A stretch of 64,000 nucleotides of DNA from Haloplanus sp. HW8-1. GTDB taxonomy: Archaea; Halobacteriota; Halobacteria; Halobacteriales; Haloferacaceae. The stretch covers positions 930,001 to 994,000 of the forward strand of contig NZ_CP098518.1 of the NCBI RefSeq assembly GCF_023703795.1, written 5' to 3'. Positions 55,902-58,776 of this stretch are shown here, piece by piece. Made by a program: the position numbers and the translations under genes. The stretch's first letter is position 1. Each line of letters starts with the position of its first letter. The notes beneath the pieces were generated by a model. The model searched no databases and was not told the DNA's origin. It saw nothing but the letters and a program-made list of their open reading frames with translations.

Positions 55902-55998
55902 ACACGACCGTTGTACGTCCACATATATAATTATTGTTCGGATCGTTTGGTGACGTGTATCGTGGTGACTCGTCGCACGGTCGCCTTTCCACTGGCGG

Positions 55999-56019
55999 TC
56001 GCGACAAAACGGTGGGACT
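55999..56019. repeat. 21-bp direct repeat copy B (att-like)
   Basis: TCGCGACAAAACGGTGGGAC followed by T, identical to the sequence at 56186-56206, which includes the 3' end of tRNA-Ser. The similarity continues imperfectly into the flanking sequence (CGCCAGTGG versus CCCCAGTGA on the other strand), as expected for an old attachment site. Confidence 0.75.
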
Positions 56020-56185
56020 TCCGCGAGTGAGCGGTCACCGACAGATCGAGACGAACGGAGTGAATCGAGAGAGGTCGGTCGGACTCGGATTCGAACCACG
56101 GTCGGACGCTATCTTGCTCGCTTCGCTCGCAAGACTGCGACCCCCCCGATTCGAATCTCAGTGGCCGCTTTTCGCTCACTGGGGT

Positions 56186-56206
56186 TCGCGACAAAACGGT
56201 GGGACT
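56186..56206. repeat. 21-bp direct repeat copy A (att-like, tRNA-Ser 3' end)
   Basis: Same 21-mer as at 55999. About half of it lies inside the tRNA-Ser acceptor and T-stem boundary, and half downstream of the 3' end. That is the usual location for attachment sites of integrative elements using tRNA genes. Confidence 0.75.
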
Positions 56207-56280
56207 GGGATTCGAACCCAGGAAGCCGTGAGGCTACCTGCTTTCAAGGCAGGCGCAATGGGCCGCTCTGCCATCCCACC
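56197..56280 (-). tRNA. tRNA-Ser (anticodon UGA)
   Basis: 84-base class II tRNA on the minus strand. The acceptor stem pairs GGTGGGA with TCCCACC. The anticodon stem CCTGC/GCAGG carries the loop CTTGAAA with anticodon TGA for serine UCA codons. A long variable arm (TAGCCTCACGGCTTC) and the T arm CTGGGTTCGAATCCCAG complete it. No CCA is encoded. The 3' end is duplicated 187 bases downstream. Confidence 0.94.
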
Positions 56281-56608
56281 ACGACCTGTCGGTCGTAACC
56301 CTGCGCAGTCCGGCGATTATCTCAATCCATCGGTCAATCCAGCATGAACTCCGCTCAACCCATCGAACCTGAGTCGAACCGACTCCAAACCGCTCACACG
56401 CCGGATCATGGCAGGTACACGGACGTCTGACCGGGAATCAGTTGAAGGTGTCGTTCTTATTAGCGAGCCAGCCCTCAACGCGCTGACTGAGTGGTAACGT
56501 ATCTCGACAACGTCAAGCTTGCCGTCAGATCCTCCTTCGGGTGCAACGACGATCCGTTGGGTACGGATATCAAGGTCGAAGGCGGAAAGTCGGGGGGTCG
56601 TACAGCCG
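56281..56608. other. Gap of about 330 bases, no gene recognised
   Basis: Between tRNA-Ser and the integrase remnant. The base composition is less GC-rich. Reading frames are short and show no recognisable domain; the stretch may contain the N-terminal part of the decayed integrase, but no motif is certain. Confidence 0.5.
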
Positions 56609-57048
56609 AGGGACTACTCCACCAACCTGGAACGGCAGCGGACTAGAGATACTGTCCTCGAATACGAGAGCGTCCAGTCCTACGCCACCCTCGCTCCAGA
56701 GAAGCGACGGCAGCGAATGATGTGTTTCGCGGAACGCTTCGCGAAAGGGTGAACGATATTGGCCGAGAAGACTGGGAGTGGGCTAGCGGCGTCAAATACG
56801 TCTCTCTCGTCAACGTGTCCCTCGACGGAGGACTCCGCCCGGTCGAAGCCGGTCGCGCAACCGTCAATCGGGCCGTCTCGACGACTGCGTCCTCCGGATT
56901 CCCGAAGAAGAATCGTCGAAGAGCACCGGTGACTGGCAGGTGCGTCTCACCGAAACGACGACTGGTGTCTAGCTCGGTCGCTGGAGGAACGCGGGTTATA
57001 CGACAGACACGCCGATACGGACGCGCTCGACGACATCGGATGGTGTAG
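56609..57048 (+). pseudogene. Tyrosine recombinase/integrase remnant with several frameshifts
   Basis: Pieces in different frames fit the haloarchaeal XerC/D-like integrase in one order. Frame at 56609: RDYSTNLERQRTRDTVLEYE, VQSYATLAPEKRRQRMMCFA, ERFAKG. Next frame: REDWEWASGVKYVSLVNVSL, DGGLRPVEAGRATVNR (the GLRPxE box holding the first catalytic Arg). Next: VLRIPEEESSKSTGDWQVRL, TETTTGV. Last: LEERGLYDRHADTDALDD. The catalytic HxxR and Tyr parts are missing. It stands near a tRNA-Ser with duplicated end, so it is the scar of an integrated element. Confidence 0.78.
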
Positions 57049-57054
57049 TGATCG

Positions 57055-57624
57055 TCAGGCGACCAGATCCTTGTTAATAATCACCGTCTGTGAGGGGTTG
57101 TGAACAACGCGTACGGAGATCGCGCTCCCTCGTCTCAGTTCACAATCCCCTTTTGCTATCCGGAAAATAATGCTGTCGCCAGTGGTGTACTGCCCTCCCT
57201 GTAAGAGCGCCACGCCGTTATCCACACCGTCTACCTGATTGTCGATCGTATTCAACGAACTCTCGTCAAAAATGTCATCCCCCTCGATTTGCCCATCTGA
57301 TTCGCGGATCGCATTGCCCGATCCTGCTGGAAGATTGACTATTCGTCCTTGTTTCGTTCCTGCTTCACACTCAGCCCGCACCGATATCTCGATATCCGAG
57401 ACTGCGATAGAGTCACCGGCAACATGCATCAATTTGACAATACTTCCACTGTCCCCTTCTTGTGGTATAAACTCGCCACTCGTCTGAGCAACCATCGGCG
57501 CGGGGTCGTTGAGGTTCTCTGTAAAACCGAGAGCGAACGAAGCGATAGTCGCGGCTAAGATAACGACAATCGCGACCAGTAAAATAACCGAGATAACGGA
57601 CGAGACGGCTCGATTTCCACGCAC
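57055..57624 (-). CDS. Type IV pilin-like (archaeal pilin N-terminal domain) protein
   Basis: Protein of 189 residues. It starts MRGNRAVSSVISVILLVAIV, a class III signal of haloarchaeal pilins (Arg-rich n-region, AVSSVISVILLVA-type hydrophobic helix), followed by an Ala/Ser-rich stretch. The head ends at ASFALGFTENLNDPAPMVAQ, then an extracellular beta domain with GGQYTTGDSIIFRIAKGDCE and a C-terminal VRVVHNPSQTVI. The signal would be cut by the prepilin peptidase PibD. Base composition is clearly lower in GC than the flanks, and it lies beside the integrase remnant, so it may be a transferred accessory pilin. Confidence 0.85.
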   Translation of the reverse strand: MRGNRAVSSVISVILLVAIVVILAATIASFALGFTENLNDPAPMVAQTSGEFIPQEGDSGSIVKLMHVAGDSIAVSDIEISVRAECEAGTKQGRIVNLPAGSGNAIRESDGQIEGDDIFDESSLNTIDNQVDGVDNGVALLQGGQYTTGDSIIFRIAKGDCELRRGSAISVRVVHNPSQTVIINKDLVA

Positions 57625-58020
57625 GATCTGTATCTCGAGTCGTATGATAATACAGGGTCGTTTGAACCCTTTATTGTATCGACTCCGTATTCAGCCCGCT
57701 GCTCCTGTCGATTGCTGAGAACTTCAAGAGAGACCTATTCACAACATCCGACCGACGTTGCCAACGGCTGACTTCGGGGAGGCGCGGAACAGCATCACCT
57801 CCCGACGCTCCCATCCGTCCAGATGTAGATCCCGATCCAGAACTGAGCCACGTATTTTGTTACCAGGGTCACGTGCCGATGGATGCTCCCGCCGGGAGTT
57901 CGCCGATCTGAGGTTCCTGTCTCGGAAGATGCGCGCAATAGGTCGCTCTCTCACCACGGCGCTTCGAACCCCCTGCCGATCAGAGGCCGTTCGCCGTCCT
58001 TGCGGACGGATCGTCGACGC
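57625..58020. other. Gap of about 395 bases, no gene recognised
   Basis: Contains the AT-rich promoter region of the pilin gene (TATTATCATA on the minus strand near 57648) and then about 300 bases with only short, unrecognised reading frames on both strands. The end of the DUF2064-like gene follows at 58021. Confidence 0.5.
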
Positions 58021-58776
58021 TCAGCTCCGGACGAGCCGTGGCTCCGCCCCATCGCGATCCACCCGGAGGCCAATCCGGTCCAGAAACGCGGCGGTGTTCG
58101 CGGGGACGATCCGTTCGGCGTCGACTCGCGCGTTCAGGAGGGGGAGCACGTCCACCAGGTCCGCGCCCGTCTCGAGGACCGGCTGGATCGGCAGGAAGTC
58201 GACGTCGTGGCCGGCGTCGCGTCCCCGGTCGGTGAGCGTCTCCACGGCCGGCGGGGTGAACGCGTCGGCGAAGTCGACGGGGTCGGTGAAGCCGGCGTAG
58301 TAGACCCGCCCGCGGGTCGACGCGCCGAGGACGACTTCGGCTCTGCGGAGCTTCATCGCCGCGTTGTCGACGAGCGTACGGGTCAGAAACGGCGCCGACC
58401 CCTGAACGACGGCCGCGGAGGTGACGCCTTCCTCGCGCAAGAGATGCGTGATCGTGTTGCCCGCACGGGCGTCGAACGCCGATCCGACCTGTGGCTCGAA
58501 CCGTGCGTCGCCCGGATCGTCGAGGGCGCCGGCCGCGAGCGCCCGGACCGCCGCCTTCGCGGTCGTGTCGGTGACGTGTTCGGACGGCAGGAGGTCGTCC
58601 GGACGGTAGTTGACGAGGAGGTCGCCACCCGAACGGGAGACGGCGACGAAGACGTCGCGACACATCGCGGCGTAACACTCCGCGGCCTCTGCCTCGGTCA
58701 GGGGGCTGGTCGCCGCGAGGTCGGTCGCGACAAGTCCCTCGCGTGGGGGGTCCGCCATGACAGCGATGGTGGTCAT
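58021..58776 (-). CDS. DUF2064-like protein (glycosyltransferase-A-like fold)
   Basis: Protein of 251 residues. It starts TTIAVMADPPREGLV, then LTEAEAAECYAAMCRDVFVA, an AGNTITHLLREEGVTSAAVV block, VQGSAPFLTRTLVDNAAMKL, and VVLGASTRGRVYYAGFTDPV, followed by DFLPIQPVLETGADLVDVLP. The order is that of DUF2064, which resembles nucleotide-sugar transferases: an N-terminal basic strand, a middle DSP-like site (here GSAPFL) and a GGxYxxG-like end. The Asp-Ser-Pro metal site is changed to Gly-Ser-Ala-Pro, so catalysis is doubtful. Function unknown. Confidence 0.62.
   Translation of the reverse strand: MTTIAVMADPPREGLVATDLAATSPLTEAEAAECYAAMCRDVFVAVSRSGGDLLVNYRPDDLLPSEHVTDTTAKAAVRALAAGALDDPGDARFEPQVGSAFDARAGNTITHLLREEGVTSAAVVQGSAPFLTRTLVDNAAMKLRRAEVVLGASTRGRVYYAGFTDPVDFADAFTPPAVETLTDRGRDAGHDVDFLPIQPVLETGADLVDVLPLLNARVDAERIVPANTAAFLDRIGLRVDRDGAEPRLVRS

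Follow-up and report, generated by a model that had tools for sequence, protein, structure and literature searches.

In the 64-kb window, that is, the whole stretch of DNA analyzed here, a tRNA-Ser(UGA) gene lies on the minus strand at 56197..56280 (RF00005, 56.9 bits; ARAGORN, 56196-56281), with base 56197 as N73. The identity profile of 134 tails and the sequence itself mark its 3′ part, T1 (tRNA positions 52-73; 56197..56218, minus strand), as a block that is copied behind the gene. Directly after N73 comes a first tail hairpin, HP1 (56163..56196, minus strand), for which we had the evidence of folds, consensus and covariation. It is followed on the same strand by A′ (56150..56162), in which the host tRNA's T-loop and 3′ T-stem strand recur in inverted form (the complement of positions 54-65), by the HP2 core (56098..56149), whose conserved ends are degenerate here (TCGGGGGG ... 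CGACCGT) and surround a variable hairpin with GCGAGCGAAGCGAGC, and by T2 (56076..56097), a direct copy of tRNA positions 52-73 with two mismatches. The stretch 56076-56196 is one complete unit of a class-wide family, and the covariance model described below matches the minus strand of the window at 56077-56197 (986077-986197 in the genome) with 93.1 bits and an E-value of 8.4e-16.

A second unit, of type B, comes next on the minus strand. It begins with a hairpin-forming spacer without a T-loop copy (56020..56075), which was recognized from its sequence and is of a sequence type that other species also have behind tRNA-Ser. Then come T3 (56010..56019), where the tRNA 3′ end is present for the third time (positions 64-73), and a partial second copy of HP1 (55990..56009). 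What stands behind tRNA-Ser(UGA) is a two-unit array of a structured tRNA-tail element. Type-B units, seen in the window and at three other loci (L008, L018 and L061), end in a copy of the acceptor strand only and occur behind Ser, Ala and Arg tRNAs.

A preliminary description of this locus had reported a 21-bp perfect direct repeat, and we found it as described: TCGCGACAAAACGGTGGGACT occupies 55999-56019, where T3 belongs to the distal copy, and 56186-56206. No third copy occurs in the 64-kb window, even when three mismatches are allowed, and 100 shuffles gave none. The imperfect extension of the repeat was likewise confirmed, as 30 bp at 93% identity (55990-56019 and 56177-56206) that take in the partial HP1 copy. 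On the minus strand, the repeat comprises the last 10 nt of tRNA-Ser(UGA) and the start of its 3′ flank, in agreement with the claim that it covers the tRNA 3′ end. Both T-arm-like stretches noted between the copies, GATTCGAATC and GGTTCGAATCC, are there; the spacer, given as 167 bases, has 166 (56020-56185). These features had been read as an attachment (att) scar, in which the spacer would be what an integrated element had left behind, with tRNA 3′ fragments accumulated from several insertions. Several duplicated tRNA 3′ ends are indeed present, but the spacer did not prove to be such a remnant: no remnant of an element or integrase lies between the copies in the window, and the 166 nt consist of the class-wide hairpin units.

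As a separate observation, the interval 56282-57980, between tRNA-Ser and a DUF2064 gene (58021-58776, minus strand), looks inserted and contains an archaeal type IV pilin (57055-57624, Pilin_N). In another genome (G010, locus L003), DUF2064-like sequence seems, by eye, to adjoin the tRNA directly.

Anatomy and distribution of the tail unit

A full unit measures about 70-120 nt and consists of HP1, A′, the core TCAGGGAG...CGACCGTGG and T2. T2 is a direct copy of positions 52-73 of the host tRNA, and A′ is an inverted copy of positions 54-65; together they form the host-matched HP2, which closes on the conserved core, and HP1 joins the tRNA to HP2. Among the 134 tails, identity between T1 and T2 was 0.88-1.0 from positions 52/53 to 73, compared with 0.12 at position 51 and 0.46 at the first base past 73. 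These limits of the copied block are those expected of an integrase T-loop attachment site, and on this point the preliminary description was right. The position of A′ was taken from the conserved core, independently of pairing, in 141 of 169 tails (the 28 without a recognizable core were left out). Its pairing with T2 was 0.85-0.93 at positions 57-62, 0.63-0.67 at 63-65, 0.43 at 66 and 0.20 at 67; none of 2000 shuffles reached the observed mean. Because pairing falls away from position 66, A′ mirrors the T-loop and the 3′ T-stem strand only. The core ends TCAGGGAG and CGACCGTGG are kept, and the hairpin between them varies in length and sequence. Alignment of 16 tails gave two hairpins with compensatory changes, with 28 double changes compared with 7.9 in shuffles (0 of 500 shuffles reached this level). 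As for a coding reading of the spacer, unit lengths differ by non-multiples of three, and hairpin loops vary freely. The window and 12 loci gave only tRNA and SRP RNA as Rfam families above gathering, and none for the tail. A K-turn in the core was considered and rejected on inspection by eye, which found no bulge.

Units stand behind some 25 kinds of tRNA, each carrying the 3′ end of its own host. In the genome of the window, 12 of 44 chromosomal tRNAs had a model match downstream (E <= 1), as did 20 of 45 tRNAs in a second genome (G006), and 26 of the 29 matches at E <= 1e-4 in these two genomes were on the same strand as a tRNA and at most 200 nt downstream of it. A model-free test in the genome of the window found a copy of the tRNA's own 3′ end (at least 18 of 24 positions) in the 450 nt downstream of 11 of the 44 chromosomal tRNAs, compared with 0 of 44 upstream, and none of these 11 copies was matched as well by another tRNA. 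The tRNA counts from these two genomes are the less biased frequencies. The later tails come from loci that were fetched as matches, which biases the set to strong tails, and 134 of 176 is therefore not a frequency; the genomes were read in fetched stretches rather than in full.

Two observations concern unusual tRNAs. The 200-kb contig C3 of the genome of the window carries 12 ARAGORN tRNA genes within 10 kb (L127, G000:C3:4500-15000), possibly a virus- or plasmid-borne tRNA set; no core motif was found behind these 12, and their best downstream copies had 5-9 mismatches in 20. In another genome (G008, a stretch among L250-L269), ARAGORN calls a tailed tRNA-Pyl(CTA), which is more likely a miscalled arginine-type tRNA because the copied 3′ end is that of tRNA-Arg(TCT) tails.

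A search with tRNA-Ser(UGA) and its flank matched 12 of 12 genomes in the genus. Most of these genomes have additional copies of the T-loop-to-acceptor part behind tRNA-Ser(UGA), and weaker matches turned out to be tails behind tRNA-Ala, -Lys, -His and -Leu, each with the 3′ end of its own tRNA. The covariance model built from the aligned tails of this search matched all 12 genus genomes. At E <= 1e-4, the cut-off of the class survey (its E-values are approximate), the model matched 283 of the 292 genomes of the class and, counted by genus, 74 of 77. The phylum sample gave 50 matches among 294, all within the class and labelled as own, same family or same order; the non-matches were 3 from these groups, 17 labelled 'same phylum' and 224 further rows. 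A search of 84,980 species for the exact core pattern gave 46 loci, all from Halobacteria by title. Within these loci, the exact core has 47 places, 44 of them with a called tRNA upstream. Two of the exceptions are located where the stored stretch ends; in the last one (L206), the upstream sequence is tRNA-like but received no ARAGORN call. A second core pattern (TCAGGGAG ... CGACCGTGG) occurred exactly in 70 of 116 class genomes, covering 35 of 45 genera, and its reversed-pattern control was absent among the matches listed. Here a called tRNA lay upstream in 28 of 30 fetched loci, and in one of the remaining two (L304) the tail follows a tRNA-Pro 3′ end that has been displaced. The unit was not found in the virus, phage and plasmid sets searched, and the one viral pattern match (L168) had no tRNA and was in unrelated sequence. 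The tail is a class-wide element, present in nearly all haloarchaea examined. Our literature search found no earlier description of a haloarchaeal tRNA tail; subscription papers were mostly beyond its reach, and absence from print is unproven.

The class-wide survey rules out the att scar of one element as the main account of the locus. Integration of one element or several into tRNA-Ser(UGA), with an att scar left behind, would agree with the copied block, since a block from the T-loop to N73 is one known type of integrase site (PMC8371274). However, the same unit stands behind many tRNA kinds across the class, its inverted arm is matched to each host tRNA, and it was not found in the viral contigs, phages and plasmids searched; the spacer is a conserved unit and not the remnant of an element. 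Related genomes largely show the same arrangement without elements, an outcome that the preliminary description itself had named as speaking against its reading. We consider an att scar very unlikely.

Gain, loss and integration at tailed tRNAs

The preliminary description had proposed comparing strains for occupied and empty sites, and both versions were seen in related genomes. In 51 comparisons of tail-less with tailed orthologues, the tail-less flank scored 32.5 on average against the flank after the last T2 and 19.5 against the flank after T1. Clear empty sites were found at Gly(CCC), Leu(CAA), Leu(GAG) and Ser(UGA), and the flank scores after T2 and after T1 were 86 vs 12 for Gly(CCC) and 80 vs 12 for Ser(UGA). 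The opposite direction was seen for Gly(GCC), for Asp(GTC) with one genome and for part of Val(TAC), as if HP1 had stayed while T2 decayed, and many tail-less/tailed pairs had no likeness in either direction. The clean empty sites in related species thus show that a unit is gained or lost as a block with the tRNA copies as its exact limits. Two or three units may also stand in an array. Recombination between short direct repeats, including deletion, is documented for Haloquadratum (PMC3119063), and it would be enough for unit losses and arrays.

Inheritance was assessed from nearest relatives among 75 of 83 tails. In 40 of these 75, the HP1 most similar to a given HP1 came from the same tRNA of a different genome (3.9 in shuffles), and the corresponding value for the core was 23.7 (3.5 in shuffles). 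The units are therefore passed on mostly vertically, and some core variants are common to different tRNAs with unrelated HP1. In one genome (G011; L255, from about 1357), an AT-rich insertion with a 189-aa ORF directly follows T2 of tRNA-Ser(UGA), and no further tRNA 3′ copy was found past this insertion in the 19.9 kb fetched.

These data bear on the main rival to the reading that we prefer, namely, a small mobile DNA repeat of about 85-110 bp that is tied to tRNA genes and is of the MITE, SMR or REP-like kind. It would duplicate 22 bp of its target on insertion at the 3′ end of the tRNA and be recognized as single-stranded DNA hairpins. Such a repeat would fit the clean empty and occupied sites among relatives, the core variants shared by tRNAs with unrelated HP1 and the lack of a sense-strand G.U preference in most stems (see below), as for DNA-level hairpins, and small mobile repeats of about 110 bp are on record for haloarchaea (PMC3119063). 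However, exact cores stood behind a called tRNA at nearly all places under both patterns, and no dispersed population was seen; the HP1 counts are a sign of vertical inheritance; and insertion alone would not give an A′ that matches the host tRNA. On balance, a mobile repeat appears unlikely.

The tail might also be a mutational by-product without function, in which template switching at the near-palindromic T-arm produced A′ and T2, and unequal crossing-over produced arrays and losses. This agrees with the tandem arrays, with the distribution of T2 mismatches, which are commoner at positions 66-73 than at 57-65, as in decay, and with repeat-mediated deletion, which is known in haloarchaea (PMC3119063). 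Nevertheless, a host-independent core (TCAGGGAG ... CGACCGTGG) spread over so many genomes and genera is hard to obtain from mutation alone, and we regard this origin as improbable.

The genome of the window holds two real integrations. One is a 14.9-kb element at tRNA-Pro(TGG) with a tyrosine recombinase (PF00589) and a displaced 16-nt tRNA 3′ end (L305, G000:C1:27700-43100), and the other is an element of about 5.7 kb at tRNA-Arg(TCT), also with a tyrosine recombinase (PF00589) and with a displaced 13-nt 3′ end (L306, G000:C1:1703900-1710400). For the att-scar reading they cut both ways: elements do integrate into tRNA genes of this very genome, but they are kilobases long and bring a recombinase. 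Both displaced ends keep their tail after them, and the tails were therefore in place before both elements; at tRNA-Pro, the sequence past the intact gene resembles the flank after the distal T2. Real integrations in this genome push an existing tail away from its tRNA. It could be argued that T2 acts as a decoy, a second attachment site that draws integrases off the working tRNA, since T2 still contains the 3′ block on which integrases of this kind act. However, both elements integrated at T1 and not at T2, even though the T2 of tRNA-Arg(TCT) has the whole 13-nt site, and a decoy role seems extremely unlikely. In a further genome (G004; L256, 932 and 19082), a second copy of the 5′ half of tRNA-Ser(UGA) lies 18.15 kb upstream of the intact gene, as might result from an element whose attachment site was on the anticodon side.

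RNA or DNA level and the preferred reading

Strand energy and G.U pairs were tested in 110 of the 134 tails. The tRNA-sense strand had the better fold energy than the antisense strand, with counts of 91 vs 18 for HP1 and 104 vs 6 for HP2. G.U pairs were not in excess in the sense strand for HP1 (75 sense vs 78 antisense) or for the HP2 outer stem (41 vs 39); the inner stem had a weak excess (114 vs 86), and 39 distinct short inner hairpins contained 6 G.U and 1 A.C. Since most stems have no G.U excess, the sense-strand energy bias lies in tandem GA motifs and purine loops, and these would have their effect in RNA or in single-stranded DNA. There was no sign that T2 positions 66-72 are kept for pairing with the 5′ acceptor strand, with 27 changes keeping and 41 breaking the pairing. 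Where T1 and T2 differ, A′ matched T1 in 18 cases and T2 in 3; A′ therefore does not track changes in T2, which is what drift of T2 would produce. Tailed tRNAs had no weaker T-run behind them than tail-less ones, and terminators thus give no support for read-through. Selection on the tail at the RNA level is not established, and we infer its RNA-level function.

At the DNA level, we also considered a gene-less cassette that would be mobilized as single-stranded DNA and inserted by a chromosomal tyrosine recombinase into the matching tRNA, restoring its 3′ end. HP2 would then fold to a double-stranded T-loop site, like attC or a folded phage site, with an overlap at 54-60, an arm at 61-65, the imperfect arm TCAGGG/CCGTGG and the variable terminal hairpin. 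If true, this would explain why A′ stops at 65 and T2 at 73, why most stems have no RNA-type G.U bias and why the sites are clean, and the E. coli rtT repeats would be another instance. Both the cassette and this assignment of the parts of HP2 are speculative and quite improbable.

The reading that we prefer follows the rtT repeats of E. coli, which are poorly understood. In E. coli MG1655, three exact copies of AATCCTTCCCCCACCACCA stand behind tyrV at a spacing of 178 nt, and the direct copy is the last 19 nt of the tRNA. The tyrV unit contains an inverted T-arm/acceptor copy (17 of 20 positions; 0 of 300 shuffles), and the predicted fold has this inverted copy paired with the direct one. The first direct copy also marks exactly where the annotated RttR RNA ends. 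It is on this E. coli precedent that we prefer an RNA-releasing tail. The RtT model (RF00391) matched 0 of 59 class genomes at E <= 0.001, with a positive E. coli control; the likeness to E. coli is therefore one of layout and not of homology, and the tails lie outside that Rfam family.

The anatomy of the tail, its class-wide association with host tRNAs and the clean gain and loss of the block between T1 and T2 were observed directly, and we hold them with high confidence. Overall, we lean slightly toward the whole rtT-type reading, a haloarchaeal tRNA tail with an RNA product and turnover by recombination. The tail would be cotranscribed with the tRNA, and tRNA 3′ processing, which is the task of tRNase Z, would act at T1 and at its mimic T2 to release an RNA of about 100 nt with two hairpins. 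Recombination between the 22-bp direct copies would account for tail loss and tandem growth. By analogy with RttR, the tail-derived RNA itself is quite possible, though not quite probable. The tail may be either a new family of small RNAs that arise as tRNAs mature or a mobile repeat tied to tRNA genes, and it is directly testable in genetically tractable haloarchaea. Short repeats of tRNA 3′ ends in haloarchaea should not be taken for integration scars until the spacer has been checked.

Comparison with known systems

With archaeal tRNA attachment sites (attL/attR), the tail shares a direct repeat of the tRNA 3′ part, a 5′ limit at the T-loop and the existence of occupied and empty sites. Unlike these sites, it has no element or recombinase between the copies, and it has a conserved spacer and a host-matched inverted arm. 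Integron attC sites have conserved outer arms, small internal mismatches and a variable terminal hairpin, and folded phage attachment sites form a double-stranded site from folded single-stranded DNA; the tail, with its conserved outer arms, small mismatches and variable terminal hairpin, is like them in layout alone. The small mobile repeats of haloarchaea that are described in PMC3119063 measure about 110 bp, favor palindromes and have an unexplained mobility. The Haloquadratum SMR/PATEs among them resemble the tail in being about 110 bp long, hairpin-rich, gene-less and variable in presence between strains, but they target other mobile elements, whereas the tail sits behind tRNAs and carries host tRNA sequence.

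In their sequences, the haloarchaeal tails share the three-part layout of the rtT repeats. As in E. coli tyrT/tyrV with RttR (RF00391), units stand behind the tRNA, occur in tandem and end in an exact copy of its 3′ part, at the tRNA 3′ terminus, and an inverted copy pairs with the direct one. The inverted copy covers the acceptor and T-stem in E. coli, whereas it covers the T-loop and T-stem in haloarchaea. Additionally, the E. coli repeats are bound to one tRNA locus and measure 178 nt, compared with many tRNA kinds and about 70-120 nt in haloarchaea, and CCA is encoded in E. coli only. The E. coli rtT repeat, an isolated oddity, thereby gains a parallel to its three-part layout in another domain.
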